From: Gemmatimonadota bacterium
GTDB taxonomy: Bacteria > Gemmatimonadota > Gemmatimonadetes > Gemmatimonadales > Gemmatimonadaceae
DNA: 51,325 nt
Direction of reading: 5' to 3'
Assembly: GCA_003223455.1 (NCBI GenBank)
Contig: QHVE01000014.1
Span: 11,752-63,076, forward strand
The translations under genes and the position numbers were made by a program. The notes beneath the pieces were generated by a model. That model was not told where the DNA came from. It did no database searches and saw only the letters and a program-made list of their open reading frames with translations. This document shows, piece by piece, positions 465-18,498 of the stretch (its first letter is position 1; every line of letters begins with the position of its first letter).

Positions 465-3032
465 ATGAGTGCTAAAAAAATAGCATTATCTCGCCGTTCT
501 CTCGCCGCCGCCGCGCTGCTCGTGGCGCCCATGCCGTGCATTGCTGCGCAGACGGCCAAGTCCAGCGCCGCGCAGCCGGTCGTGGTGGCTGCGAGCGCAC
601 GTGCGGCGGCGAGCGCCGCGCGAGCCGAGCAGGCACCGTCGATCGACGGCCGCGATGACGACGCCGCGTGGCGTGCCGCCGCGCCGATCGCGGGATTCCG
701 GCAGTTCGATCCGGTGGAAGACGCCGAGCCCTCGATGCGCACCGAGGCGCGCGTCACCTACGACGACGCACACCTCTACGTGTTCGTCCGCGCGTTCGAT
801 CCGCGGCCCGACAGCATCATCGCCCTGCTCAGCCGGCGCGACGTGCGCACCGCGTCGGACCAGATCAAGGTGATGATCGACTCCTATCACGATCGCCGCA
901 CCGGCTTCGAGTTCGCCGTGAACCCCGCCGGCGTGAAGCGCGACTACTACACGTACGACGACAGCCAGGAGGACGGTTCGTGGAACGCGGTGTGGGACGT
1001 CGCCACGCACATCGACTCGCTCGGTTGGACGGCGGAGTTCCGCATTCCGCTCAGTCAGCTCCGCTATCCACCCGCCGCGTCGCACACCTTCGGCGTGATG
1101 ATCATCCGCGAGCTCGCACGCCGGAACGAGCGCGTGAGCTGGCCCCTGCTGCGCCGGTCGCGCAACGCCATCGCCTCGCAGTTCGGCGACCTCGGCGGCT
1201 TCGCCGGACTCGGCTCGCCGAGGCGCCTCGAGATCGCGCCGTATGCGCTCGTGCGCAACGTCGGCGCCGTGCGCGCCGACGACATCCGCCGCTCGCAGCA
1301 GGGGACGCTGGGCGCGGACCTCAAGTACGGTCTCACGTCGAATCTCACGATCGACGCGACGATCAATCCCGACTTCGGCCAGGTCGAGGCCGATCCCGCG
1401 CAGCTCAATCTCACGGCGTTCGAGACGTTCTTCGAGGAGCGTCGGCCGTTCTTCCTCGAAGGGATGTCGATCTTCCAGTTCGGCGCCGATCCGGAGCAGC
1501 TCTTCTACTCGCGGCGCATCGGCCGCGCACCGCAGCTCGCCGGCCTCGCCCCCGACGGCGTCGACGTTCCGGGCGCGTCGCGCATCCTTGGCGCGGGGAA
1601 GCTCACCGGCCGCGTGGCCGGCGGCACGTCGCTCGGCGTGCTCGCCGCGATGACCGACCGCACCGAGGCGGGCAGCACGACGATCGAGCCGCGAACGACG
1701 TACGGGCTCGTGCGCGCGACGCGCGAGCTCCGGCAGGGTGAGAGCGCATTCGGCGCCATCGCCACGATCGTCGATCGCGCACTCGGCGTCGGCGAGTCAC
1801 CCTACTTGAGGAGTGGCGCCTACGCGGCCGGCGTCGACGGACGGCATCGCTTCGGCCAGGGGCGGTTCGAGATCACCGGCTCGCTCGCCGCGAGCTCCGT
1901 TCGCGGCTCGGCCGACGCGATCGCGCGGACGCAGCGGTCGTCGGTGCATCAGTATCAGCGCCCCGACGACGATCTCGCCGTCGACACGCTGCGCACGTCG
2001 CTCACGGGCACTTCGCTGCGGCTCATGGCGAAGAAGGTCGCCGGGCTGGTGCGCGGCACCGTCTCGTATCAGCGCGTCACGCCGGGCTACGAGACGAACG
2101 ACTTCGGATTCCTCGCGCGCGCCGACGAGCAGATCCTGAACACCAATCTGCGCTTCATCCCGACGAAGCCGGTCGGTCCGTGGCGCAATGCCTCGCTCGA
2201 GTTCTACCAGCAGCACCACTTCACGACGGCGGGCCTTCCCACGGGCGCGCTGTACGAAGCCTACGCCAACGGCAGCCTGAAGAGCGGCGCCTACATGAGC
2301 GTGGACTCGTGGGTGGACAACGCCGGCGCGGTGTACTGCGACCGCTGCGCGCGCGGTGGTCCCGCGCTGCGGCTCTCACCGACCTTCAACACGCTCGTGA
2401 ACATCGCGGCCGATCCGAAGCGCCGCGTGTCGCCGCAGTTCGCGGCGATCTACACGCTTGGCGACGACGGACGCTCGCTGCTCTGGCGCGTCCGGCCCTA
2501 CGTGATCGTGCGGCCATCGACGCGGCTCGGGATCGAGCTCGGCACGCGCTACCAGTACAACCGCGACAACACCCAGTGGGTCGCCAACGTCGGCCAGATC
2601 GGTGCGGACAGCACGCACTACCTGTTCGGGCGGCTGCACCAGGATCTGCTGAGCTTCACGGGCCGCATGGATCTCACGATCCACCCGGCGCTGTCGCTGC
2701 AGCTCTACGCCGAGCCGTTCGTGACGGCGGGACACTTCACCGACGTCCGCGAGCTCGCCGCGCCGCGCGCGAAGTCGTACGACGCGCGGTTCCGCCCCTA
2801 CGCCGGCCAGGCTCCCGACGCCGACTTCAACGAGAAGAGCTTCCACTCGAGCGTCGTCGCGCGGTGGGAGTATCGTCCCGGCTCCACGCTGTTCGTCGTC
2901 TGGACCCAAGGCCGCGACCAGAGCGACCGCGACGTCGGCAGCTTCGACGCCTCGCGCGACTACCGGAACCTGTTCGCGGCGCGGCCGGAGAACGTGGTGT
3001 TGATCAAGGCGGCGTATTGGATAGGGCGGTAG
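465..3032 (+). CDS. DUF5916 outer-membrane protein with CBM9-like domain
   Basis: This 855-residue protein starts with a signal peptide (K4-K5, hydrophobic stretch to about A28, then AQ). Residues about 57-230 resemble the carbohydrate-binding family 9/DOMON-like sandwich (S-I-D-G-x(5)-AW opening). From about residue 250 onward it matches the DUF5916 pattern: the signature NPDFGQVEAD followed by FFEERRPFFLEG lies near residues 300-330, and the remainder alternates short beta strands as in an outer-membrane barrel. Members often sit beside TonB systems and secreted peptidases; their substrate is not known. No strong ribosome binding site precedes ATG 465, but the signal peptide begins there. 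A run of seven A residues sits in codons 4-6. The gene stands alone and converges on the subtilisin gene. Confidence 0.88.
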   Translation: MSAKKIALSRRSLAAAALLVAPMPCIAAQTAKSSAAQPVVVAASARAAASAARAEQAPSIDGRDDDAAWRAAAPIAGFRQFDPVEDAEPSMRTEARVTYDDAHLYVFVRAFDPRPDSIIALLSRRDVRTASDQIKVMIDSYHDRRTGFEFAVNPAGVKRDYYTYDDSQEDGSWNAVWDVATHIDSLGWTAEFRIPLSQLRYPPAASHTFGVMIIRELARRNERVSWPLLRRSRNAIASQFGDLGGFAGLGSPRRLEIAPYALVRNVGAVRADDIRRSQQGTLGADLKYGLTSNLTIDATINPDFGQVEADPAQLNLTAFETFFEERRPFFLEGMSIFQFGADPEQLFYSRRIGRAPQLAGLAPDGVDVPGASRILGAGKLTGRVAGGTSLGVLAAMTDRTEAGSTTIEPRTTYGLVRATRELRQGESAFGAIATIVDRALGVGESPYLRSGAYAAGVDGRHRFGQGRFEITGSLAASSVRGSADAIARTQRSSVHQYQRPDDDLAVDTLRTSLTGTSLRLMAKKVAGLVRGTVSYQRVTPGYETNDFGFLARADEQILNTNLRFIPTKPVGPWRNASLEFYQQHHFTTAGLPTGALYEAYANGSLKSGAYMSVDSWVDNAGAVYCDRCARGGPALRLSPTFNTLVNIAADPKRRVSPQFAAIYTLGDDGRSLLWRVRPYVIVRPSTRLGIELGTRYQYNRDNTQWVANVGQIGADSTHYLFGRLHQDLLSFTGRMDLTIHPALSLQLYAEPFVTAGHFTDVRELAAPRAKSYDARFRPYAGQAPDADFNEKSFHSSVVARWEYRPGSTLFVVWTQGRDQSDRDVGSFDASRDYRNLFAARPENVVLIKAAYWIGR

Positions 3033-6484: not shown

Positions 6485-7734
6485 TGCGCTTCGTCTCCGC
6501 CGACCAGCTCCGCGAGAACGTCGGCATTGCCGTCGACGCGCTGCGCACGAACAAGCTGCGCTCGAGCCTCACGATCCTCGGCGTCGTGATCGGCGTGTCG
6601 ACCGTGATGACGATGGCGACGATCGTGAAGGGGATCCGCGACCAGATCCTGACGACGATCGCCATCGCCGGTCCGACGACGTTCTATGTAATGAAGATCT
6701 TCTCGTCCACGCCGCTCAACCCCGACCAGCTGCCGAAGTACGTGCGGGTGCGCCCCGATCTCCGCGCCGAGGAAGCGACGCGGATCGCCTCGCTTCCCGA
6801 GGTGGGGTACGCCGGGATCTGGTCACAGGTCCAGGCGCGGATCAGCTATGCCGGCGTGCGCACGCGCGACGTGCTGGTGTACGGCGCCGACGACCGGTAT
6901 CAGGAGACGTTCGGCGGTGAGCTCGTGGCGGGGCGGTGGTTCACCAAGGCCGAGCTGCGGAGTGGCGCGCCGGTCGTCGTCCTGCAGGAGCGCCATGCGC
7001 GGCAGGTGTTCGGGCGCGTGGCCCCGCTCGAGAAGCTCGTGCTGATCGGCGGCCGGCCGGTGCAGGTGATCGGCCTGTATCAGGAGCCGGAGAACATCTT
7101 CGCGCCGCCGGGGCAGGAGATGGGCGCCGTGTTGCCGTTCCAGTTCACCTGGCACGCGTACAACATCGACAAGACGAACGCGCTGTTCATCGTCGTCAAG
7201 CCGCGTCCGGGAGTGAGCGTCGGCCAGGCCGAAGACGCGGTGACGATCGCGCTGCGGGAGATGCGCGGGCTCCGGCCGGCCGACAAGAACAACTTCGACC
7301 TGTTCAGCCAGGACCAGGTGCTCGACGTGTTCACCTCGATCACGGACGTCTTCTTCCTCGTGATGCTCGTGCTCGCGTCGGTGGCGCTCATGGTGGGCGG
7401 CATCGGTGTGATGGCCATCATGATGGTGTCGGTCACGGCCCGTACGCGCGAGATCGGCATCAGGAAGGCGCTGGGCGCGACGCGGCGCGACATCCTCGTC
7501 CAGTTCCTCATCGAGGCCTCGACGCTCACCGGCATCGGCGGGCTGCTCGGCATCGCCTTCGGCCTTGCCGCGGGCCGCGGCGTGACGATGCTCCTGAACG
7601 TTTCCGCCGACGCTCCGCTGCTGCAGACGGGGATCGCGGTCGCGGTGTCGGTGGGGATCGGCCTGGTATTCGGCGTCGTCCCGGCCCGGCGGGCGGCCCG
7701 GCTGGACCCGATCGAGGCGTTGAGGCACGAATAG
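6481..7734 (+). CDS. ABC transporter permease, MacB/FtsX type (second of two)
   Basis: This is a paralogue of the preceding gene, 417 residues, with the same order: an N-terminal helix (about 27-47), a MacB-PCD-like periplasmic domain, and a C-terminal FtsX domain with TREIGIRKALGATRRDI and VPARRAARLDPIEALRHE. I chose ATG 6481 because it overlaps the upstream stop (ATGA) and because MMRFVSADQLRENV aligns with the N-terminus of the partner. The frame continues upstream, but that part lies inside the first permease. The gene ends 16 bp before the promoter of the BlaI-type gene. The ATPase must be encoded elsewhere if one is used. Confidence 0.9.
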   Translation: MMRFVSADQLRENVGIAVDALRTNKLRSSLTILGVVIGVSTVMTMATIVKGIRDQILTTIAIAGPTTFYVMKIFSSTPLNPDQLPKYVRVRPDLRAEEATRIASLPEVGYAGIWSQVQARISYAGVRTRDVLVYGADDRYQETFGGELVAGRWFTKAELRSGAPVVVLQERHARQVFGRVAPLEKLVLIGGRPVQVIGLYQEPENIFAPPGQEMGAVLPFQFTWHAYNIDKTNALFIVVKPRPGVSVGQAEDAVTIALREMRGLRPADKNNFDLFSQDQVLDVFTSITDVFFLVMLVLASVALMVGGIGVMAIMMVSVTARTREIGIRKALGATRRDILVQFLIEASTLTGIGGLLGIAFGLAAGRGVTMLLNVSADAPLLQTGIAVAVSVGIGLVFGVVPARRAARLDPIEALRHE

Positions 7735-7749
7735 GCGCCTCGCGCCCCC

Positions 7750-7797
7750 TTGACAATCTCTCCGCACAGTTGAAATATCAGCATAGCTGATTTTTCA
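7750..7797 (+). promoter_or_regulatory. Promoter with tandem TGA-N4-TCA operators before the BlaI-type gene
   Basis: TTGACA (7750-7755) is followed after 17 nt by AAATAT (7773-7778). Two copies of TGA-N4-TCA lie on or just downstream of the -10: tgaaatatca (7771-7780) and tgatttttca (7788-7797), 17 bp apart. They also form a larger symmetry, gaaatatcagc / gctgatttttc, around ATA (one mismatch in 11). An AT-rich dyad over a promoter next to its own BlaI-type gene is the usual autoregulation layout of that family. Confidence 0.65.
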
Positions 7798-7813
7798 GCA
7801 CCTCCTCTTTCTG

Positions 7814-8218
7814 ATGGTCTCCTCGATGAAGAAGCAGCCCGAGACGCCAGCCCTGTCGCGCCGTGAGCGGCAGGTCATGGATATCCTCCACAAGCATGGC
7901 GAGGCCACGGTGGCCGAGATCATGGCGGACCTTCCCGATCCGCCGACGTACTCCGCCGTGCGCTCCGTGCTGCGCATCCTTGGCGAGAAGCAGCTCATCC
8001 GGTTCAAGGAGGACGGGCCGCGCTACGTCTACTATCCCGCGCAGTCCACCGAGGTCGCGCGCGAGGACGTGCTCGCGCACGTCGTCCAGACGTACTTCGC
8101 CGGCTCCCCCGAGCAGGCGGTCACGGCGCTCCTCCGCATGTCCGACGTCGACGTCGCGGACGGCGAGATCGAGCGGCTCCGCAGCGCCATCCGCCAGGCC
8201 CGCCAGAACGGGAGATGA
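7814..8218 (+). CDS. BlaI/MecI/CopY-family transcriptional repressor
   Basis: This 134-residue protein (130 if ATG 7826 is used) has the family's winged helix at about residues 15-75, with LSRRERQVMDILHKHGEATVAEI at its start and the recognition-helix region PTYSAVRSVLRIL. A C-terminal dimerisation helix region follows. BlaI-type repressors are removed from DNA when a partner M56 membrane protease is activated. Here the M56 gene begins only 7 bp downstream, so the pair forms an operon. The gene is preceded by a good promoter overlapped by tandem dyads, which implies autoregulation. No clear ribosome binding site is visible at either start. Confidence 0.93.
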   Translation: MVSSMKKQPETPALSRRERQVMDILHKHGEATVAEIMADLPDPPTYSAVRSVLRILGEKQLIRFKEDGPRYVYYPAQSTEVAREDVLAHVVQTYFAGSPEQAVTALLRMSDVDVADGEIERLRSAIRQARQNGR

Positions 8219-8225
8219 TCCGCCA

Positions 8226-10451
8226 ATGAACCTCGCCTCCCTCCTCACCTCCGGCGGCCAGAGCCTGAACGTTCCGCTCGTGCTGCTGCTGATCAAGGCG
8301 ACGACGATCCTGCTCGCCGCGCTCGGCATCACGCTCGCCATGCAGCGCGCCTCCGCGGGTGCACGCCATCTCGTGTGGCTCGTGACGCTGGGTGCGCTGC
8401 TGCTCATCCCCGCGCTCACCGCTTGGGGGCCGCTGCGTCTCGAGATCCTGCCCGCTCCTGCTTCGGACGCGGCCTTCGCCGTTCCGGCGGTGCCTGCGAG
8501 TCCCGCGGCGTCGGTCACGCCGGCGCCGGCGGTCGTCATCGATGGTTCGTCGGCCGTCGTCGCGACCGGAGCGCAGATCGCGGCGCCTGCCGCGCCGACG
8601 AGCGTCTCGCGTTCGTCATCCACCGGTCTCGTCGCCTCCGTGCGTGATGCCAGCGTCTGGGTGGTGGCGTTGACGCTGTGGGCCGTCGTCGCACTCGCGA
8701 TCGTCGCCTCTCTCACCTGGTCGTCGCTCGTCGTGCGCCGGCTGGTGCGCCGCAGTGAGCCGCTCGACGATCAGGCGTGGCTCACGCCGCTCTACGAAGT
8801 GTCCGATCGCCTCGGCCTCGACGAGCCGCCGCGCCTCCTCATGAGCCGCGACGCCAAGATGCCGTTCGCCTGCGGTCTCGCGACGCCGACGATCGTGCTC
8901 CCCGCCGAGTGCGAGAGCTGGAGCCACGAGCGCCGGCTCGCCGTGCTGCTGCACGAGCTGGCGCACGTGCGCCGCCGCGACCTGATGGGCCACACCCTCG
9001 GCCGGCTCGTCTGCGCGATCTACTGGTTCCATCCACTCGCGTGGACGGCGGCGCGGCAGCTGCGCGCCGAGAGCGAGCGCGCGTGCGACGACCTCGCGCT
9101 GTCGTGCGGCACGCGGGCGACCGACTACGCCGAGCATCTGCTCGACATCGTGACCTCCGTGCGCCGCGAGGCCACGCCGATGGTGGCGCTGGCGATGGCG
9201 CGGCGGAAGGAGTTCGAGGGGCGCATGCTCGCCATCCTCGACCCCGAGCTGCGGCACTCGACGCCGAGCCGCACGCAGAGCGCCACCCTGATCGGCACGC
9301 TCGCGCTGCTGTCGATCGTCGTCGGCGCGGTGGTGCCGGCGCCGGCGAGCGCGAAGCCCGCCGCGTCGCAGAACGTGGCGACGCACGACGCACGTGAAGA
9401 GCACTCGGTCGTGATGATGCACGCACCCGAGGTCATGAACGACTCCAACGTCGCCAACGACCGCGTGCGGGAGAAGCCGCTCGTGCACGAGCGGGAGCGC
9501 ACGCGCACCTGGACGCAGACGCGCACGAGCCAGTCGACGACGCAGCAGACGCGCACGAGCACGGATTCATCGCCGCTCGAACAGCAGGCGGAGCGCGCAC
9601 TGGAGCACGTCGTCACGTCGGCGGTCGGCGTCGTGATGGAGCGCGTCGTGCCGAACGCGATTCAGAAGGGCACGGACGCGGCCAGCGCAAAGCTGCAGGA
9701 GCTGATCAGGCAGGCTCCGCAGGGCAAGCAGGCGGCCGACGAGCGGCCCGCACTGCTCGCGCGCGTGCTGCGCTCGGACAGCAGCGCGCAGCTGCGGAAG
9801 GTGGCGGCGTGGGGGTTGAGCGAATACGGCGAAGATCCGGTGGCCGTCGACGCGCTCGTCAATGCGGTGCGCCGCGACGCGAGCGAGCCGGTGCGCGAGA
9901 TGGCGGCGTGGTCGTTGTCCGAGAGCGAGCGCTCGACGACGGCGATCGATGCGCTGGCCGCCGCGCTCCGCGACGCGAGCGTGTCGGTGCGGAAGACCGC
10001 GGCATGGTCGCTCGGCAACATCGGGGATCGCCGCGCGGTGGAGCCGCTCGTCGCTGCACTCGCCGACGCGAACGCCGACGTGCGCGCGCGCGCCGTGTGG
10101 GCGCTCGGCAACGTGGAGCCGAAGGACGCGCCGCGGCAGCTCGTCGCAATGCTGAGCGACAAGGACCCACACGTTCGCGAGCTCACCGCGTGGGCGCTGT
10201 ACAACATCGAAGATCCGTCAGCGGCGCCGGCGCTCCAGGCCGCGCTGCGCGCGGAGAAGGACACGGATATCCAGCTCGGTTACATCCGCGCGCTCGCGGC
10301 GATGGGCGAGAAGTCCGTCGACGCGCTCCGGCCGCTCCTCGAGTCGAGCGATCCGAGAGTGAAGTCGATGGCAGTGCACGCCCTCGCCGGTGGTCACGCC
10401 ACCGGCCCGTGGCCGCGTCCCTGGCCGCAGCCGCGGCCGTTCCCGAACTGA
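8226..10451 (+). CDS. M56-family (BlaR1-like) membrane metallopeptidase with HEAT repeats
   Basis: This 741-residue protein has two N-terminal helices (about 17-38 and 48-68), a third at about 141-165, a cytoplasmic zinc-protease domain with H243-E-L-A-H247 and the E284-R-A-C-D motif, and a fourth helix at about 352-372. This is the BlaR1 topology. Where BlaR1 has a penicillin-binding sensor, this protein has a Thr/Gln/Arg-rich linker (about 420-450) and then HEAT repeats (about 515-720, with repeated VR-x(3)-AWAL-G-N). It ends in a Trp/Pro-rich tail (GPWPRPWPQPRPFPN). The expected role is to sense an envelope signal and cleave or release the BlaI-type repressor. The start at 8226 lies 7 bp after blaI; the upstream open frame is a shadow of blaI. 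Confidence 0.9.
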   Translation: MNLASLLTSGGQSLNVPLVLLLIKATTILLAALGITLAMQRASAGARHLVWLVTLGALLLIPALTAWGPLRLEILPAPASDAAFAVPAVPASPAASVTPAPAVVIDGSSAVVATGAQIAAPAAPTSVSRSSSTGLVASVRDASVWVVALTLWAVVALAIVASLTWSSLVVRRLVRRSEPLDDQAWLTPLYEVSDRLGLDEPPRLLMSRDAKMPFACGLATPTIVLPAECESWSHERRLAVLLHELAHVRRRDLMGHTLGRLVCAIYWFHPLAWTAARQLRAESERACDDLALSCGTRATDYAEHLLDIVTSVRREATPMVALAMARRKEFEGRMLAILDPELRHSTPSRTQSATLIGTLALLSIVVGAVVPAPASAKPAASQNVATHDAREEHSVVMMHAPEVMNDSNVANDRVREKPLVHERERTRTWTQTRTSQSTTQQTRTSTDSSPLEQQAERALEHVVTSAVGVVMERVVPNAIQKGTDAASAKLQELIRQAPQGKQAADERPALLARVLRSDSSAQLRKVAAWGLSEYGEDPVAVDALVNAVRRDASEPVREMAAWSLSESERSTTAIDALAAALRDASVSVRKTAAWSLGNIGDRRAVEPLVAALADANADVRARAVWALGNVEPKDAPRQLVAMLSDKDPHVRELTAWALYNIEDPSAAPALQAALRAEKDTDIQLGYIRALAAMGEKSVDALRPLLESSDPRVKSMAVHALAGGHATGPWPRPWPQPRPFPN

Positions 10452-10518
10452 CACCACACCGCACCGGGCGCGCATGAGTCGAAGTAGTCCATGCGCGCCG
10501 GTGCTCACCGCACGTAGT

Positions 10519-10530
10519 GCTGATTTTTCA
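10519..10530 (+). promoter_or_regulatory. Copy of the BlaI-type operator motif before the HEAT-repeat gene
   Basis: The 12-mer gctgatttttca here is identical to 7786-7797 in front of the BlaI-type gene. It lies 26 nt before ATG 10557, in a 105-bp gap that is otherwise GC-rich. A shared operator would place the HEAT-repeat gene under the same repressor. The identity is observed; the regulation is inferred. Confidence 0.5.
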
Positions 10531-10556
10531 CCCTTGAAAGCCCGAGGGCTCATCCC

Positions 10557-11954
10557 ATGGGCGCGATGAACGGAGTGAACATGTTGCGTGTACTCGGAGT
10601 GTTGACGACGGCAGCGCTGATGGCCAACGCGGGGCGCGACCCCTCGGCCGCGGCCGCGCGGTCGGCGTCGTCGGAGACCGTGGCGGCGATCGACGTGACG
10701 GCGCTGCTCGCCGCGGCGCGCGGCGCGCCGCCGCTCATCTGCGGCCTCGCCGCACAATCGATCGGCAACGGGAACTGGGGCTGGTCCGACATGCCGGCCT
10801 CGCCCCTCGGCGCCTCGGCGCGTCCGCTGGATGGCGACCGCCGCGCGATACAGAATCTCCCCGACGCCGACGTGACGCGATTGCTCGACGCACTGTCGTC
10901 GGACGACGCGTGCGTGCGCGAGATGAGCGTCCGCCTCGTCGGGCATCAGGACGAGTCGCGCGTCGCCGCGCCGCTCATCTCGAAGCTCACCGCGCCCGAT
11001 GCCTCGCTGCGTATGGTCGCCGCGCTCGGCCTGGGCCTCGTCGAGCCGCAGCGTGCCGTCGATCCGCTGATCGGGACGCTGCGCGACGCCACCGCCGAGG
11101 TGCGCGCCAACTCCGCGTGGGCACTCGGCCGGATCGAGAACGGGCGCGCGCTCGCGCCCCTCACCGGAATGTTTCGCGACGCCTCGCCGCTCGTACGCGA
11201 GGCGGCGGTGTCGGCCGTCGGACGGTTCGAGTCGACGAGCGCGGTCGCCTCGCTGCTGCGCGTGCTCCAGGAGGATCAGGTGGCGTCGGTGCGCCGCGTG
11301 GCGGCGTGGGCGCTCGGACATCTCGAGTCGCGTGAGTCCGCACAGGCGCTCGCGTCGGTGCTCGCCAAGGAGAGCGATCCGCGCGTGCGCGAGATGACCG
11401 CGTGGGCGCTCGGCCAGATCGAGCAGCGATCGGGATCGGCGGCGCTGCAGCACGCGCTGCGTGAGGACGCCGACGACGGCGTGCGCGAGACGGCGGCGTG
11501 GGCGCTCGCGCAGATGGAGGACCGCACGGCACTCGACGCGCTCACCGCGGCGCTGGGTGACCGCAGCAGTCGCGTGAGAGGTACGGCGGCATGGGCGATC
11601 GGTCAGCTCGCGGACGACGACTCACGCGGCAAGGCGCCGGCGGCGTTGACGCGCCTGCTCAAGGACGACAGCGAGGACGTGCGTCGGAAGGCGGCGTGGG
11701 CGCTGGGGAACGTCGCCGACGTCTCGGCCGTGCCGGCGATCCGCGATGCGATGCGAGTCGAGCAGAGCTCCGATGTGCGGAAGGCGCTGGTGCGCGCGCT
11801 GACGAAATCCGGTGGACGCTCGGAGGCGGTGTTCACCGAGCTGTTGTCGTCGAGCGATCCCAAGGTCCGGGAGGCGGCGGTGCGCGGACTGGCGGGCCAG
11901 AACGCGTTCAATCCGTGGCCGTGGCCGTGGCCGCGTCCCCGGCCGTTCCCGTGA
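10557..11954 (+). CDS. Secreted HEAT-repeat protein with Trp/Pro C-terminal tail
   Basis: This protein (465 residues from 10557; 457 from ATG 10581, which has GGAG 5 nt upstream) begins with a signal-peptide-like stretch (MLRVLGVLTTAALMANA). About ten HEAT/PBS-lyase-type repeats of 31 residues run from about residue 110 to 440, each with the VR-x(2)-AAWALG-x-(I/L)E core. It ends NPWPWPWPRPRPFP, nearly the same tail as the M56 protein upstream, and the residues before the tail also match (AV-x(2)-LAG). It therefore looks like a free copy of the M56 sensor's HEAT region. It could be a partner, decoy or ligand for that protein. The start is uncertain between 10557, 10566 and 10581. Confidence 0.85.
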   Translation: MGAMNGVNMLRVLGVLTTAALMANAGRDPSAAAARSASSETVAAIDVTALLAAARGAPPLICGLAAQSIGNGNWGWSDMPASPLGASARPLDGDRRAIQNLPDADVTRLLDALSSDDACVREMSVRLVGHQDESRVAAPLISKLTAPDASLRMVAALGLGLVEPQRAVDPLIGTLRDATAEVRANSAWALGRIENGRALAPLTGMFRDASPLVREAAVSAVGRFESTSAVASLLRVLQEDQVASVRRVAAWALGHLESRESAQALASVLAKESDPRVREMTAWALGQIEQRSGSAALQHALREDADDGVRETAAWALAQMEDRTALDALTAALGDRSSRVRGTAAWAIGQLADDDSRGKAPAALTRLLKDDSEDVRRKAAWALGNVADVSAVPAIRDAMRVEQSSDVRKALVRALTKSGGRSEAVFTELLSSSDPKVREAAVRGLAGQNAFNPWPWPWPRPRPFP

Positions 11955-12520
11955 GCGCGCCGATGTTCGCGCAGGTGCTGATGCTGGCGTGCGGGCTCGT
12001 GACGTGCGAGCCCGCCGTGGCATTCGCCGCACCGAGCGCGCAGCGGCGACCCGACTGTGCCGAGTGGTGCGCGATGGACTCCACTCGGGCGACGACGGTG
12101 CGGCGGGCGCGGACTGCGACGCGCGACGGCGCATGGAATGAAGCCGCCGAGTTGTGGCGCGACGCGCTGCTCGTCGACGGCCGCCGCGGCGCAGACTGGC
12201 TCGCGCTGGGCGACGTGCTGGTGCACGCTGATCGTCACCGCGAGGCCGCCGCGGCCTATCAGCGGGCGATCCAGGTCGACGCTCGACTGACGGAGCGCGG
12301 CACGCGCAGCGTGGCCCGGGCGTACGCGCAGATGGGCGACGACCGACAGGCGGTGCGGTGGCTCGAGCAGGCGTTGCGGCTCGGCGCGCGACCGGCCGAG
12401 CTGTGGAGCGACGAGAGCTTCCGGCGCTATCGCGACGCGCCACGACTGCAGAGTGAGCTGCGGCGCCAGGTCGGTCGCTCCGACTCCAGCCACCCCGAGC
12501 GAGTGGCGGCATCGACGTGA
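11951..12520 (+). CDS. Small secreted TPR protein
   Basis: The GTG start at 11951 overlaps the stop of the HEAT-repeat gene (GTGA), so translation is probably coupled; ATG 11963 is an alternative. The 189-residue product has a hydrophobic N-terminus ending near AFAAPSAQ, a Cys pair (DCAEWC) just after it, and two to three TPR-like helical pairs (WNEAAELWRDAL, REAAAAYQRAIQVD, RQAVRWLEQALRLG). TPR domains bind partner proteins. The close link to the HEAT gene suggests a common envelope function. I do not recognise a named family. Confidence 0.75.
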   Translation: MSAPMFAQVLMLACGLVTCEPAVAFAAPSAQRRPDCAEWCAMDSTRATTVRRARTATRDGAWNEAAELWRDALLVDGRRGADWLALGDVLVHADRHREAAAAYQRAIQVDARLTERGTRSVARAYAQMGDDRQAVRWLEQALRLGARPAELWSDESFRRYRDAPRLQSELRRQVGRSDSSHPERVAAST

Positions 12521-12554
12521 TGGTCGGCTGGAGCCGCGCCCCAGATAATCGACG

Positions 12555-12604
12555 CGTCAATTGACGGGCTGAGCCTTTGGAGGTAGCATCGCCAAGGCTC
12601 AGCC
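12555..12604 (+). promoter_or_regulatory. Palindrome, hairpin and putative promoter upstream of the TPR/S41/M28 operon
   Basis: CGTCAATTGACG (12555-12566) is a perfect 12-bp palindrome. It is followed by an 11-bp hairpin, ggctgagcctt (12567-12577) and aaggctcagcc (12594-12604). TTGACG (12561-12566) spaced 17 nt from TAGCAT (12584-12589) is a possible promoter lying inside the hairpin. The hairpin could also end transcription from the gene before it. Which function applies cannot be decided from sequence. Confidence 0.4.
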
Positions 12605-12683
12605 TGCCGCGATCTCGTCTCCGAGGTCCGGCAAGCGCTCGCTCCCGCGGGCGACGGGGTGGGCCGTCCCCACCGGCCCCGCC

Positions 12684-13892
12684 ATGCGCCGCCCCTTCGC
12701 GACTCTCGCCCTCGCGCTCACCGCGACAGGCGCTCCGCTGCTAGCGGCGCCGCTCGTGGCGCAGCAGGTCGCCGAGCCGATCCCGCGGCCGAGGCTACGC
12801 GACGTCACCGATACCAACGACGCGCAGGCGTATTTCGACGCCGGCGTCGAGAGCATCCGTTCCGATCCCGCTTACGCCGCGGACGCTTTCTACTGGGCGA
12901 CGCGATTGAACCCGGGCTGGGCGGATCCGCTGTACGGACGTCGCGCAGCGGTGCTGGCACAGAAGCGCGATCTGCTGAACGTCGCCATGGACAGCCGGCG
13001 TCGGTTCAAGCCCGAGCTGCTCGGCCTCGATTCACTGCAGGCGCGCGCGTACATGCTCGACCCGTTCCTGTACCGCCGGCTCGATGCGCTGCTCTTCCTC
13101 GACTACATCGCCGGCGGCGACCGCGTGATGCAGGCGGAGTACGCCCACAGGATCACCGTCTGGCTGCACGATGCGCCGGCCTCGTTCCAGGCGTGGTACG
13201 AATACGCGCAGGGCAACTTCGAGCGCGCGCTGAGCGAATATGCCCGGGCGATCGGACAGGAGCGCGAGACCGCCTGGCTGCATCTCGAGCGCGCCCGCAT
13301 TCTCGGGATGCGCAAGGAGGTGGAGTCGGCGGTAGCCGAGTTCGAGCTCGCGCTCGCCGAGCTCCGCTCCAGGGACGACAGAAAGCTGGTGGTGTTCTAC
13401 GACTCCAAGGCGTTGACCGAGTTCAGCATGGCGACGCTGCTCGAAGGAGCGGGCCAACTGGACAGAGCCAGGGAGGCATACGGACGCGCGCTGCAGGAGG
13501 ATCTCGCGTACTACCCGGCGCACATGCGACTCGGGTTTCTCGCGCTCACCCAGGGTGACAGCTCCGCGGCGATCAGCGAGTTGGCGATGGCGTCGGAGCT
13601 CGCGCCGAACGACGCGTTCGTGCGCTTCATGAACGGCTGGGTGCTCGGCAGGACGCGGCATGCGACGGAGGCGATCGCCGAGTTCACCAGGGCGACCGAG
13701 CTGGAGCCGTACTACGCGTTGCCGAACCTCATGCTCGGCGCGCAGTACGAGGCGCTCGACAACCCGCCCGAAGCGATCGCGGCGTACCATCGCTTCCTCA
13801 CGATGGCGAGCGCGCGCGATCCGCAGCGCCAGTTCGCGACGGACCGCATCGAGGACATCAAGGCCTACCTCGACGCGCCGAGGACGAAATGA
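12684..13892 (+). CDS. Secreted TPR-repeat protein
   Basis: This 402-residue protein has a signal peptide (MRRPFATLALALTATGAPLLAAPLVAQQ) and then tetratricopeptide repeats over most of its length. Helical pairs are visible around YFDAGVESIRSDPAYAADAFYWATRLNP, FERALSEYARAIG, LDRAREAYGRALQEDL and PEAIAAYHRFLTMA. TPRs mediate protein-protein contacts; no enzyme domain is present. Its stop overlaps the start of the S41 protease gene (ATGA at 13889-13892), so it may act as an adaptor for that protease. A possible promoter and hairpin lie at 12555-12604. Confidence 0.85.
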   Translation: MRRPFATLALALTATGAPLLAAPLVAQQVAEPIPRPRLRDVTDTNDAQAYFDAGVESIRSDPAYAADAFYWATRLNPGWADPLYGRRAAVLAQKRDLLNVAMDSRRRFKPELLGLDSLQARAYMLDPFLYRRLDALLFLDYIAGGDRVMQAEYAHRITVWLHDAPASFQAWYEYAQGNFERALSEYARAIGQERETAWLHLERARILGMRKEVESAVAEFELALAELRSRDDRKLVVFYDSKALTEFSMATLLEGAGQLDRAREAYGRALQEDLAYYPAHMRLGFLALTQGDSSAAISELAMASELAPNDAFVRFMNGWVLGRTRHATEAIAEFTRATELEPYYALPNLMLGAQYEALDNPPEAIAAYHRFLTMASARDPQRQFATDRIEDIKAYLDAPRTK

Positions 13893-15478
13893 CGATCCGT
13901 GCCGCGGCGTTGGCGCTGGCGGCGGCGAGCGTCTGCGCGCTCGCGCCGCTCCGCGCGCAGGAGGCGGCGGAGAGCGCGAGCCCGATCAGGAAGCGCACGA
14001 CGTACGATGATCTGCAGCTGTTCGGGCAGGTGCTCAACCAGATCCGCGTCAACCATCCCGACTCGATCGACTCGCACGACCTCTTCCTCGCCGCAGTCGA
14101 GGGGATGGTGCACGCGGCGGATCCGCACTCGTACGTCGTGCCGGCAGTGCGGTTGAACGGCGCGAAGGCGGAGGCCCTGGACAAGGGAAAGCTCTACCCG
14201 GTGCCGATCTCGTTCACCTTCGTGGGAGGCGCGCCAGTGGTCGTGAGCGTGTCGCCAGGCACCGAGGCCAACCAGCTCGGCATCCTGCCGGGAGACGAGC
14301 TGGTGGCGGTGGAAGGCCGGCCAATGGTCGGACACAGCGTGTTCGAGCTGGACGTCGAGCTGAGTGGCGAGAAGAAATCCACCGCGCGGCTGACGTTCGA
14401 GCGGTTGCGCGATGACGGCACGACGGTGCGACTCGAACGTGCGGTCAAGCGCGAGCGCGTCGAAGGCGAGACGGCAGTGCCGGTGGCGACGCTGCTGGAT
14501 TCGCTCACCGGCTACGTGCGCGTCACGACGTTCATGGGCAAGCGCGTGGCGGACGATCTGCACGCCGCGCTCGACCGGTTGGAGAAGCGTGGCATGCGGC
14601 GCCTGCTGCTCGACCTGCGCGACAACGGCGGCGGAAGCGTGGCGGAAGCGGCGGCGGTGGCGGGGGAGTTCCTGCCGCGCGGCAGCATCGTGTACACGGC
14701 GGATGGACGGAAGCCAGAGATCACCGACACGGGGCGCGTGAAGCGCTCGTTCTGGCGATCGGAGCGGCGGTATCCGATCGTGGTGCTCGTGAACGCGGGC
14801 ACGGCGAGCGCGTCGGAGCTCGTGGCCGGCGCGCTGCAGGACGACGACCGCGCGCTGATCGCCGGGCATCCGACGTTTGGCAAGTCGCTGCTCATGCGTG
14901 CCTTCCCGATGCGCGACGGCTCCGTGCTGATGCTGGTCGTGGGCCACGTGCGCACGCCGTGCGGCCGCGTGGTGCAGCGGCAGTACCGCTCGGTCACGCG
15001 GCGCGAGTACTACCGGCTCGCGCGCGCGGAGCGCGACACCGTCGGACGTCCATCGTGTCGCACGGTGGGCGGACGCACGGTGTACGGCGGCGGTGGGATC
15101 TATCCCGATCTCGTCCTCGACGATCGCCCACCGACGCCGCGATGGGCGAGCGGCATCGCCGAGCAGCAGATGCTGCTCGCGTGGAGCGGGAGCTACGTGG
15201 ATTCGCACGCCGCGGCGCTGGGCGACCTCGGCGCCTTCTCCACGCACGAGCTGCCCGCACCGGCGCTGGCCGACTTCCGCGCCTTCGCGGAGAAACAGGG
15301 AGTCGTCGTTCCGGCCGACGGGGACGCATTGCTGCGCGATATGCTCGCGGCGAGCATCGCGTATGCCAGATGGGGCAGCGCGGGAGAGTACGAGGTGATC
15401 GCGCGCCGCGATCCGGCGGTGCAGGAGGCGGCGAAGGGATTCACGCGGGCGGTGAGCCTGATCGCGTGGACGAAGTGA
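13889..15478 (+). CDS. S41-family (C-terminal processing) protease
   Basis: This 529-residue protein has a short signal peptide (to about residue 25), an N-terminal helical region, a PDZ-like domain (about 110-185, with PGTEANQLGILPGDELVAVEGRPM) and an S41 catalytic core. Ser307 (TAS307ASE) and Lys332 (FGK332S) are spaced 25 residues, as in the Ser/Lys dyad of CtpA and Prc. The substrate-groove motif LLLDLRDNGGG precedes them. Such proteases trim or degrade envelope proteins by C-terminal recognition. The upstream TPR gene overlaps by 4 nt and the M28 gene follows after 1 nt, so this is a tight operon of envelope proteolysis. Confidence 0.92.
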   Translation: MTIRAAALALAAASVCALAPLRAQEAAESASPIRKRTTYDDLQLFGQVLNQIRVNHPDSIDSHDLFLAAVEGMVHAADPHSYVVPAVRLNGAKAEALDKGKLYPVPISFTFVGGAPVVVSVSPGTEANQLGILPGDELVAVEGRPMVGHSVFELDVELSGEKKSTARLTFERLRDDGTTVRLERAVKRERVEGETAVPVATLLDSLTGYVRVTTFMGKRVADDLHAALDRLEKRGMRRLLLDLRDNGGGSVAEAAAVAGEFLPRGSIVYTADGRKPEITDTGRVKRSFWRSERRYPIVVLVNAGTASASELVAGALQDDDRALIAGHPTFGKSLLMRAFPMRDGSVLMLVVGHVRTPCGRVVQRQYRSVTRREYYRLARAERDTVGRPSCRTVGGRTVYGGGGIYPDLVLDDRPPTPRWASGIAEQQMLLAWSGSYVDSHAAALGDLGAFSTHELPAPALADFRAFAEKQGVVVPADGDALLRDMLAASIAYARWGSAGEYEVIARRDPAVQEAAKGFTRAVSLIAWTK

Positions 15479-15479
15479 C

Positions 15480-16844
15480 ATGGTGCTAGCTTCCGGGACG
15501 CGCTTCGCGTCCCTCCGCACCCGTTACTCCCTCCTCATGCACCGTCCACTTCGTCTCGCCGCGGCCACCCAGTCCACTGCCACGTACCAGGCGGTGGCCG
15601 ATCGCCTGATCGACGCCGCGACGCGCGACAGTGCGGCGTGGAACCGCATCGCCGAGCTCACCGACACGTTCGGCCATCGACTGAGCGGCTCGGTCGCGCT
15701 GGAGCGCGCGATCGACTGGACGCTCGAGCGCATGCGCGCCGACGGCCTGGAGAACGTGCGCGGCGAGCGCGCGATGGTGCGCCACTGGGTGCGCGGCACC
15801 GAGTCGGCCGAGCTGATCACGCCGCGCCGGAAGCCGCTGGCGATGCTCGCCCTCGGCGGCAGCGTATCGACGCCGGCCGGCGGGATCACCGCGCCGGTCG
15901 TCGTCGTGACGAGCTACGACGACCTCGCGAAGCGCGGTGCGGCGGTGAAGGGGAAGATCGTCCTGTTCGACGTCCCGTTCACGGAGTACGAGGCGACGAG
16001 GCTCTACCGGACCGGTGGTGCGAGCGCGGCGGCGAAGCAGGGCGCGGTGGCGATGCTGCTGCGATCGGTGGCGTCGTTCTCGATCAACTCGCCGCACACG
16101 GGGGGCATCCGCTACGACAGCACCGTGGCGACGCGAATCCCCGCCGCGGCCATCGCGGTGGAGGATGCGCTGCTGCCGACGGTGAAGCTGGTCGTCGGCG
16201 GGCGTGACCTCCCGCTCTCGCCGTCGCGCAACGTCGTCGCCGAGCTGCGCGGACGGGAGAAGCCGGACGAGGTCGTGGTGATCGGCGGCCACATCGACTC
16301 GTGGGACGTGGGACAGGGCGCGATGGACGACGCGGGCGGCGTGGTGGCGGCGTGGGAGGCGGTTCGCGTGATGAAAGCGCTCGGGCTCCGGCCGCGGCGG
16401 ACGGTTCGCGTCGTCGGCTGGACGAACGAGGAGAACGGCGTCGACGGCGGCAGGGCATACCGTACGACGCACGCGGCCGACGTCGACAAGCACGTCTTCG
16501 CGCTCGAGTCGGACAATGGCGTGTTCCGTCCCTCCGGCATCGCCGCCGTCGGCACGGACTCGGCGCTGGCGATGCTGCGACGCATCGCGCCGCTGCTGGC
16601 GCGCATCGGGGCCGACTCGGTGACCCGCGGCGAGGGTGAAGCGGACATCGAGCCGCTGCTGCAGGCGGGCGTGCCGGGCGCCGGCCTCAGCGTCGATGGT
16701 ACGCGCTATTTCTGGTACCACCACACCAACGCCGACACCCCCGACAAGCTCGACCCACGCGACGTCGCGCGCTGCGTGGCGGTGATGGCGGTGTATGCGT
16801 ATGTGCTGGCGGAGATGCCCGAGGTGTTACCGAGGGCCCGGTGA
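15480..16844 (+). CDS. M28-family metallopeptidase (carboxypeptidase Q-like)
   Basis: This 454-residue protein contains a PA-type inserted domain (about residues 130-235) and the M28 zinc core. Expected ligands are visible: GGHIDSWDVGQGAMDDAGG (His and bridging Asp), NEENGVDGG (catalytic Glu then zinc Glu), ESDNG (Asp) and YHHTNADT (final His). The order matches the plasma glutamate carboxypeptidase/carboxypeptidase Q branch, which releases amino acids from dipeptides. ATG 15480 lies 1 nt after the S41 stop; ATG 15537 (MHRPLRLAAATQ) is an alternative. Neither gives a textbook signal peptide, which is unusual for the group. The gene ends at a very long hairpin. Confidence 0.9.
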   Translation: MVLASGTRFASLRTRYSLLMHRPLRLAAATQSTATYQAVADRLIDAATRDSAAWNRIAELTDTFGHRLSGSVALERAIDWTLERMRADGLENVRGERAMVRHWVRGTESAELITPRRKPLAMLALGGSVSTPAGGITAPVVVVTSYDDLAKRGAAVKGKIVLFDVPFTEYEATRLYRTGGASAAAKQGAVAMLLRSVASFSINSPHTGGIRYDSTVATRIPAAAIAVEDALLPTVKLVVGGRDLPLSPSRNVVAELRGREKPDEVVVIGGHIDSWDVGQGAMDDAGGVVAAWEAVRVMKALGLRPRRTVRVVGWTNEENGVDGGRAYRTTHAADVDKHVFALESDNGVFRPSGIAAVGTDSALAMLRRIAPLLARIGADSVTRGEGEADIEPLLQAGVPGAGLSVDGTRYFWYHHTNADTPDKLDPRDVARCVAVMAVYAYVLAEMPEVLPRAR

Positions 16845-17016
16845 GTTGGTGAGTTGGATCGCTGGTTGGCTGGTCGGTTGATTGGTGAGTTGACGGCCCT
16901 GGTCACAACCGGCGTGGAAGCCCCGCTGAGGGATCTCCACGCTGGTTACATCCAGGGCCGTTCCGTTCACTCGCTCACCGTCCAACTAACTAGCTATCCA
17001 ACGCACCAACTCACCG
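16839..17016. terminator. Very long imperfect hairpin between convergent genes
   Basis: Almost the whole intergenic region folds on itself. Outer arms cggtgagttggtg (16839-16851) and caccaactcaccg (17004-17016) are perfect. A middle stem acggccctgg (16893-16902) / ccagggccgt (16952-16961) is perfect. An inner stem at 16907-16918 / 16936-16947 has one G-T pair. The intervening parts are also largely complementary, giving arms of about 80 nt. It separates the M28 and retropepsin genes, so a bidirectional terminator is likely. Confidence 0.7.
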
Positions 17017-17019
17017 CGT

Positions 17020-18498
17020 TCAGTGCACCACCTTCACATCCGGCGATGCACCGACTGGCAGCTCGTTGGCCTCGCTGGCGCGGATGTCGAACACGCCGTT
17101 GGTGAAGTCGAGGTGCATTCGCGTCGCGAGGGCGACGTCGGAGCCGATGACGCCGTCGAAGTTGACGAACGTCCAGCGCTGCGCCGGCATGATCGGGACG
17201 TTGCGCAGCGCGATCGCGTAGTTTCCGTCGCTGAGCGGCACGTTGCGCGCGACCCACGCCGATTTCTTCGACAGCGACGAGCCCTGCTGGGTGCCGCCGA
17301 GTCCGACGAGCGAATTGCGGCGTGCCGCCACCGGCGTACGCGGCAGCTTCGTGAGCAGTGTCGTCGTCACGTACGTGCCTTCGGCGCCGGTGTCGAGACC
17401 GAAGATCACCGGACGCCCATCGCGCGTGACGAGGCGCACGACCGGATAGCCCACCCAGAACAGGTTGCGCGTGCCGCCGTTGTGGCGGCGCGGACGGCTG
17501 AGCGTGATCGTGCCGGCGCGCGCGTCGATCACGACGTCGAGGTGGCGCAGCACGTCGGTGCCGATCATGCCGTCGATCGGATATGTGCGCTTGATCCCGT
17601 TCACCGTCCGCTCGTCGAACCGCAGCACCTCGGGACTCACGAGCGCGGCACCCAGCCCACGTATGACGACGTCGCCCATCGACATCGAGTCGATGTAGAT
17701 GGCGCGCGCCTCGATGTGCCCGCCGACCACCCCGAGGGCGAGCGTGTCGCTCGCGGCGAGCTTGGCGCCGGCGGCGATCGCCACGTCGGTCGAGAGCAGC
17801 GTCATGCTCGCACCGGTGTCGAGCCAGAAGTCGTGCGGCTTGCCGTTGATGCGGATCGTCACGACGGGCGTGCCGATGAAGCTGCGTCGCATCGGGAGTA
17901 CGACATTGCCGCCCGGGATGTCGAACACCGGCGGCGGAACGATGCTCAGCGCATGCGCCCAGCGCTCCACACCGGCGGCGAGCGCGAGCGACCCGGCGAT
18001 GGTGTCGTCAGCCGTCCGCGCGGCGCGGAGCCGCGCCATCGCCGCCCAGTCCGAGTGGTACGACAGCGCCATCGTGAGTCCGACGCGTGCGCGGGCGCGC
18101 ACGAGGGAGTCGTTCGCGGTGCCGTGCAGCAGCTCGAACGCCACGGCGGCGGCCTCGGGCTGACCATCCATCAGCGTGCGAAGCGCCACGGCGAAGGTGC
18201 GCTCCTCCATCGACGTCGCCGCGCGCTCGGCGTTGGGCGTGTCGAGCAGCGAGACGTCGCTCCAGAAGTCGCCGACCCGTTCCGTCGGCTCCGCCCGCAG
18301 CGACCATCTGGCGCGCTGGAGCCCGATCGTCATCGCCGCATCGACGGTGTCCGTGGGCACGACGCCGTTGGCACGCCCTTCCACGATCGCCGAGGCGCTC
18401 ACCATCGGCAGCGCGGTCCCCAGCGAATCGCCGGGCGACCGGTGACACGCGAGAGCGCCGAGAACGGCGCAACCCAGAGGGAGCAGCGAGGAGCGCAT
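17020..18498 (-). CDS. Lipoprotein with two retropepsin-like aspartic protease domains
   Basis: This 492-residue protein has a lipoprotein signal ending LGALAC18, a helical region (about 90-185), then two copies of the retropepsin-like fold. Each has the active-site triad D-T-G-A (Asp227 in FWLDTGASMTLL, Asp369 in FGLDTGAEGTYV) and the second-half motif (GMIGTDVL at 310-317, GVIGSDVA at 449-456). A single chain with two DTG motifs could form an intramolecular dimer, as in pepsins. I chose ATG 18498 because the lipoprotein signal starts there; the frame further upstream is antisense to the TonB gene. It is the last gene of the minus-strand run, 80 bp after the TonB receptor. Confidence 0.87.
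   Translation of the reverse strand: MRSSLLPLGCAVLGALACHRSPGDSLGTALPMVSASAIVEGRANGVVPTDTVDAAMTIGLQRARWSLRAEPTERVGDFWSDVSLLDTPNAERAATSMEERTFAVALRTLMDGQPEAAAVAFELLHGTANDSLVRARARVGLTMALSYHSDWAAMARLRAARTADDTIAGSLALAAGVERWAHALSIVPPPVFDIPGGNVVLPMRRSFIGTPVVTIRINGKPHDFWLDTGASMTLLSTDVAIAAGAKLAASDTLALGVVGGHIEARAIYIDSMSMGDVVIRGLGAALVSPEVLRFDERTVNGIKRTYPIDGMIGTDVLRHLDVVIDARAGTITLSRPRRHNGGTRNLFWVGYPVVRLVTRDGRPVIFGLDTGAEGTYVTTTLLTKLPRTPVAARRNSLVGLGGTQQGSSLSKKSAWVARNVPLSDGNYAIALRNVPIMPAQRWTFVNFDGVIGSDVALATRMHLDFTNGVFDIRASEANELPVGASPDVKVVH

Follow-up and report, generated by a model that had tools for sequence, protein, structure and literature searches.

The window analysed here, a stretch of 51,325 nucleotides (nt) from a 5-Mb genome of the Gemmatimonadaceae (Gemmatimonadota), a family of soil bacteria (G000:C69:11752-63076), carries a locus in which genes for a BlaI-type repressor and for a BlaR1-type M56 membrane metalloprotease with HEAT repeats (M56-HEAT) are followed by a gene for a secreted, free-standing HEAT protein. 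We suggest that this triad encodes a proteolytic switch of the BlaI/BlaR1 type in which a HEAT solenoid replaces the penicillin sensor, and in which the main output is a soluble secreted paralogue of the sensor ending in the same tail; we hold this account to be reasonably probable, with appreciable room for others. It draws on predicted BlaI sites, an intact protease site, a putatively separate transcription unit for the HEAT gene (with TPR1, a small TPR protein gene), a tail private to the two HEAT proteins, and their co-inheritance. The system is delimited at 7750-12520 (blaI, M56-HEAT, free HEAT, TPR1), the remainder of the gene row being treated as neighbour.

BlaR1-type receptors have been studied almost only as antibiotic sensors. 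In this locus the sequence is enough to recognise the sensor, the repressor, the operator and the output, and output and sensor are paralogues with a private tag, making the locus a testable model of BlaR-type switches without a penicillin-binding sensor, in a phylum whose signalling has hardly been studied. It also points to DUF5916 proteins and MacB/FtsX-type permeases in such regulons. A closed, operator-defined circuit with a tagged sensor paralogue as constant output appears to be a new feature; our literature searches of open-access papers (M56-HEAT, BlaI in Gemmatimonadetes, DUF5916) retrieved nothing relevant, and an earlier mention elsewhere is possible.

A BlaR1-like protease with a HEAT domain

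The repressor matches the Penicillinase_R winged-helix family over residues 14-128 (E=1.3e-24, 87 bits against a cut-off of 22.6), and the product of the next gene matches both Peptidase_M56 (1.6e-35) and HEAT_2 (3e-41) in a single protein. Its catalytic motif, HELAH, occupies residues 243-247. Aligned with Staphylococcus aureus BlaR1 (8exs), H243ExxH247 falls on H201ExxH205, D252 on D210, E284xxxD288 on E242xxxD246 and Y301 on Y261, the names and roles of the BlaR1 residues (zinc ligands and supporting residues) being taken from PMC9834060. All elements of a gluzincin site (HExxH, ExxxD and the tyrosine) are present in the M56 domain, and HELAH, ESERACDD and YAEHLL are almost invariant in a profile of 17 orthologues. 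Since direct sequence alignment of M56-HEAT with BlaR1 is weak (E 0.04), the likeness is carried by the structural match together with the Pfam M56 match: the AlphaFold2 model (predicted local distance difference test, pLDDT, 76) shows long helices spanning 16-38, 44-67, 144-176 and 349-368, and superposes on BlaR1 (8ext) over residues 15-328 with a Z score of 18.8 and a root-mean-square deviation of 3.4 for 241 residues. Beyond the last membrane helix a low-complexity linker leads into the HEAT solenoid, which lies at the position of the penicillin sensor in BlaR1. A C-terminal sensor like that of penicillin-binding proteins (PBP-like, related to class D lactamases, with SxxK) was not found in this M56 protein. 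Because it scores far below the cut-off of the NCBIfam BlaR1 model (86 bits against 400 required, the match ending at residue 372), M56-HEAT is, as judged from its sequence, BlaR1-like in protease and topology and not a beta-lactam sensor.

M56-HEAT was searched for in 60 relatives; within the named collection, the locus has its close relatives among Gemmatimonadaceae or Gemmatimonadetes. The order blaI, M56-HEAT, free HEAT is kept in about 20 genomes. Loci of this kind (type A) with readable flanks (L044-L060) all contain the three genes in this order, as do L152, L153 and L157-L160, and no type A sensor without a free HEAT gene was seen among loci with a readable downstream flank. TPR1 has a match at the same position in six relatives only (L045, L048, L050, L053, L054, L055), some of these matches being weak. 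The M56-HEAT architecture is not confined to type A, as it also occurs in type B (see below) and in distant loci, and M56 proteins with other C-terminal domains are found in several phyla. Two cysteines, C62 and C119, are invariant in the N-terminal portion of the free HEAT protein and possibly form a disulfide or redox feature.

Predicted operators at the regulator pair and at the free HEAT gene

The coordinates of the promoter, operators and genes are collected in Table 1. Every readable locus has the consensus operator, TGYTGAnnnnTCARCA, at the blaI promoter, usually in two copies, and again as a single copy ahead of the free HEAT gene. At the blaI promoter the dyad takes the form TGTTGAAATATCAACA, followed in most type A loci by a second dyad 17 bp on; the arrangement of TTGACA and dyad is kept in relatives, with TTGACA or a near match before each type A blaI. 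These predicted sites thus have the placement of a BlaI-family operator over its own promoter, as conserved tandem dyads over the -10, while differing in sequence from the TACAnnTGTA box. The dyad between M56-HEAT and free HEAT was found in 19 of 19 loci with 0-2 mismatches, mostly 20-55 nt upstream of the HEAT start; by comparison, a site this good was present in 30 of 764 random 300-nt windows of those loci, real sites included. Scanning the whole window at up to 3 mismatches gave 6 sites against a mean of 0.18 in shuffles of it. Operator sites outnumber those of a reversed-pattern control in genomes with the triad but not in seven relatives that lack type A loci; as this control gave about 0.7 sites per genome, some single sites with one mismatch are due to chance, and the tandem pairs are the safest.

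The 105 nt between M56-HEAT and the free HEAT gene hold a hairpin in addition to the operator. Each of the 17 loci examined has a perfect stem of 6-12 bp between M56-HEAT and the operator; it bears a T-rich tail in several relatives, though not in the window. A scan of this interval of the window found no consensus terminator, though the hairpin is conserved. As the conserved hairpin and the operator precede it, the free HEAT gene is read as transcribed separately from blaI-M56, probably together with TPR1, which follows after 8 nt. By its operator the free HEAT gene is a predicted target of the repressor, and hence the putative output, and the sharing of one operator by regulator pair and output gene is that of a bla-type operon.

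The same sharing is found in trans in G024, a genome of 7.5 Mb in 4 contigs. Its blaI promoter carries GTGCGAAnnnnTTCGCAC in place of the usual operator, and its free HEAT gene, with a W-P tail, is on a different contig from blaI and has the changed box directly upstream, under a TTGACG -35 (loci L061 9280-10677 and L064 13453-13914). Across the 7.5 Mb, GTGCGAANNNNTTCGCAC is matched exactly only by the tandem pair at blaI and by the box upstream of the unlinked free HEAT gene; one more box, with 1 mismatch, precedes an apparent permease operon. In G024 linkage has been lost and the predicted specificity of the repressor has changed, yet the link to free HEAT was retained. No other single observation speaks as strongly for regulation.

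Table 1. Features of the locus and of the genes downstream of it, in window coordinates
Feature	Position	Strand	Basis
blaI-M56 promoter: -35 TTGACA 7750-7755, 17-nt spacer, -10 AAATAT 7773-7778 within O1	7750..7778	+	sequence reading
Operator dyad O1, AGTTGAAATATCAGCA, 1 mismatch to TGYTGAAAWWTCARCA	7768..7783	.	motif scan, conservation
Operator dyad O2, AGCTGATTTTTCAGCA, 17 bp from O1 in tandem	7785..7800	.	tandem pair kept in most relatives
BlaI-type repressor, 134 amino acids	7814..8218	+	Pfam PF03965
M56 (BlaR1-type) membrane metalloprotease with C-terminal periplasmic HEAT sensor, 741 amino acids	8226..10451	+	Pfam, orthologue profile, AlphaFold2, BlaR1 alignment
HEAT solenoid sensor domain, about residues 505-722	9738..10391	+	Pfam HEAT_2; AlphaFold2
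Sensor C-terminal tail GPWPRPWPQPRPFPN	10404..10448	+	tail comparison, orthologue profile
Hairpin GGCGCGCATG(13 nt)CATGCGCGCC between the genes for sensor and free HEAT	10467..10499	+	stem search
Operator dyad O3, TGCTGATTTTTCACCC, before free HEAT gene	10518..10533	.	found in 19/19 loci
Secreted free HEAT protein, 465 amino acids, sensor-domain paralogue	10557..11954	+	Pfam HEAT 2.7e-54
Free HEAT C-terminal tail NPWPWPWPRPRPFP	11910..11951	+	tail comparison, genome scan
TPR1, small secreted TPR protein	11963..12520	+	Pfam; relatives' loci
TPR2	12684..13892	+	Pfam
S41	13889..15478	+	Pfam
M28	15480..16844	+	Pfam

The shared tail and the proposed mechanism

The final ~14 residues of both proteins read PWPWPxPRPFP or variants of it, i.e., (W-P)n-R-P, a similarity far above chance. 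In 19 genomes, a DNA pattern for P-W-P-W-P-x-P-R-P had 27 matches, all 27 at the 3' ends of sensor or free HEAT genes, and it had none in four relatives without the triad. A tree built from the HEAT halves separates the free from the sensor HEATs, the two groups branching in largely mirrored fashion, with the L056 sensor, L060 and the distant types between them. The two HEATs are, by this comparison of sequences, an ancient co-inherited pair of paralogues. Recent duplication or gene conversion as the origin of the matching tails was rejected, the HEAT groups having split before the family diversified, and so was a general sorting signal, the scanned form occurring in no other gene of the 19 genomes. 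The retention of the tail in two paralogues that separated long ago argues for a common partner. In the models the tail has a pLDDT of about 70 for free HEAT and of 44-62 for the sensor. Orphan HEAT proteins of order-level relatives (L065, L066, L075, L069) have alternating tails of other kinds (VHVRVRPRVKVKP, VHVHPHVKVKP, HPRPKVRFRH), which may be a parallel class of tag.

An earlier note on this DNA, made from the letters of the window, had described a BlaI-type repressor with an M56 protease bearing HEAT repeats in place of the penicillin-binding sensor, and Pfam, catalytic residues and fold match all confirm it. The near-identical tail that it saw on a separate secreted HEAT gene is real, and the connection it drew between the membrane-bound and the free HEAT protein has gained from conserved synteny, from the operator shared in every readable locus and from the privacy of the tail. 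The operator before the free HEAT gene, and with it the putative place of that gene as an output, was not part of the note's description.

In the mechanism that we propose, the HEAT sensor would meet a ligand in the periplasm, upon which the cytoplasmic zinc protease would be activated and cut BlaI. The blaI-M56 and HEAT(-TPR1) promoters would then open and, varying with the genome, so would those of scattered DUF5916, permease or hydrolase genes. By binding that ligand or tail partner in its turn, the secreted HEAT twin would probably turn the sensor down, a negative feedback comparable to that of the bla system, where the BlaZ output removes the inducing lactam. More tentatively, the (W-P)n-R-P tail might itself be the working part, with sensor and free HEAT competing for one partner dedicated to tail binding or for the solenoid groove of the other, such that the cell gauges the free pool of the induced twin; if true, a BlaR-type switch would read internal protein balance, not a drug or metabolite.

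Several observations weigh against the switch as proposed. Type B loci have BlaI, M56-HEAT and HEAT without the tail and without a second operator; in G024 the operator-linked sensor has no tail while the free HEAT has one, and the pairing of tails is also altered in L060. In the window itself O3 has 2 mismatches, and only some relatives (L060, L061) have a clear -35 before the free HEAT gene. Feedback is assigned by analogy only, and co-receptor or effector roles would fit the same anatomy.

One further role, which we rate as possible but not probable, is that free HEAT, instead of working on a ligand as an effector, is a resident partner of the sensor, holding it off through the HEAT domain or the tail, or presenting the ligand, in the manner of RseB on RseA. 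The RseA/RseB/DegS system couples periplasmic sensing to proteolysis of a regulator and has a soluble periplasmic partner, a likeness to our locus that is functional only: there is no sequence relation, the regulator is an anti-sigma factor there and a repressor here, and here one protein would both sense and cut. An ancient paralogue pair that is always co-inherited is what a resident partner would leave, the likeness of the private tails suggests that the two proteins bind one common partner or each other, and autoregulated expression would likewise amount to negative feedback. However, the gene has an operator of its own after a hairpin, seemingly built for strong induction and more befitting an output than a stoichiometric partner, nothing pointed directly to an interface, and in G024 a tail-less sensor coexists with a tailed free HEAT. 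The present data do not decide between this partner role and the role of induced output.

Beyond the free HEAT gene, operator sites were found before CBM9-DUF5916 genes in G001, G003 (two), G005, G018 and G022, before MacB/FtsX-type permeases in G028 and G022, and before an M16 peptidase/amidohydrolase pair (G005) and an M1-like protein (G013); DUF5916 genes also adjoin the triad in L044, L052 and L056. In the window's own genome a near-consensus palindromic operator lies 39 nt upstream of a PF00144 serine hydrolase gene on C105 (L008 2541), and in L045 and L050 its orthologues (64-70% identity) are found after free HEAT. Two amidohydrolase genes have sites with 1 mismatch (C104, C23), one of them possibly frame-broken. 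The accessory targets indicated by these predicted sites thus vary between genomes and comprise CBM9-DUF5916 proteins, MacB/FtsX-type permeases and secreted hydrolases. In a reading that we think distinctly unlikely, the locus would be a switch for cell-wall or beta-lactam stress, read indirectly by the HEAT sensor, with PF00144 hydrolases, peptidases and permeases as the real outputs and free HEAT as an accessory. The PF00144 gene with its operator and orthologues beside free HEAT, as well as the sites at M16 and M1 peptidases and amidohydrolases, would fit it; yet the hydrolase targets differ between genomes whereas free HEAT is constant, the sensor has no PBP-like domain, and PF00144 proteins are mostly not lactamases. 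Three relatives (L045 1609-2880, L050 2-697, L055 3289-4434) have a distinct second PF00144 serine hydrolase gene, located upstream of the triad and encoded on the opposite strand.

Related systems and neighbouring genes

The BlaI-BlaR1-BlaZ systems of S. aureus and Bacillus licheniformis and MecI-MecR1-PBP2a share with our locus a BlaI-family repressor, an M56 gluzincin with the same catalytic residues, a C-terminal extracytoplasmic sensor, and an operator both at the repressor-sensor promoter and at the output gene. The BlaR1 sensor is related to class D beta-lactamases, and sensor and output are likewise related here. In contrast to these systems, the sensor here is a HEAT solenoid without SxxK, the operator is TGYTGAnnnnTCARCA where theirs is TACAnnTGTA, and the output is a HEAT protein with the sensor's own tail, by sequence not an enzyme. 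The BlaI/BlaR1 homologue of Mycobacterium tuberculosis resembles the locus in combining BlaI with an M56 protease that has no PBP-like sensor (PMC9834060). It differs in having no equivalent sensor domain. To our knowledge, it has no HEAT partner. Type B loci (L008 8139-11913, L062, L068, L070, L072, L073), of which the L008 copy sits in the window's own genome, have BlaI with a TACAnnTGTA box, M56-HEAT and HEAT in a row, like type A; as compared in L008, L062 and L072, they differ in that the classic CopY/BlaI-family box stands before blaI only and the HEAT gene, without a W-P tail, is next in the same unit.

Downstream of TPR1 lie TPR2 and genes for S41 and M28 peptidases. The earlier note had seen the whole row as one series with several overlaps of 1-4 nt; its gene identities stand, but not the single chain, since TPR2/S41 is the sole overlap (4 nt), S41 and M28 are spaced by 1 nt, and the other gaps are 7 nt at blaI/M56 and 163 nt at TPR1/TPR2. 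The last of these contains a promoter-like site (12561-12589), the only consensus promoter found in 7600-17100. No operator was found before TPR2, S41 or M28 in the window scan, and none of the three lies directly beside the triad in the relatives' loci. As TPR2 orthologues, present in 3 of 14 triad-bearing relatives, each adjoin S41 at a place unlinked to the triad, TPR2-S41 appears to be a unit of its own, and TPR2-S41-M28 (12684..16844, + strand) is judged to be a separate neighbour outside the system. The proposal of the earlier note that S41 and M28 are the response to envelope protein damage is highly improbable and close to refuted: adjacency on the same strand speaks for it, but on the grounds just given we rejected the two as circuit members. 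In altered form the idea of hydrolases as a response survives, in that other secreted hydrolases and peptidases have the operator in some genomes. Of the neighbours whose conservation that note had made part of a test of its circuit, HEAT is kept next to M56-HEAT and the S41 gene is not.

A second BlaI-M56 system is found just upstream (G000:C69:9161-12131, i.e., L260 337-3329, together with window 465-3032), with a sensor of repeated IPSSxDxxxVL units; in L260 a short masked run of N falls inside the C-terminal sensor of this neighbouring M56. Its operator, TGCTAAnnnnTTAGCA, occurs twice before blaI and once across the start of a CBM9-DUF5916 gene (window 470-485), so that the layout is likewise a regulator pair followed by an output with its own box.

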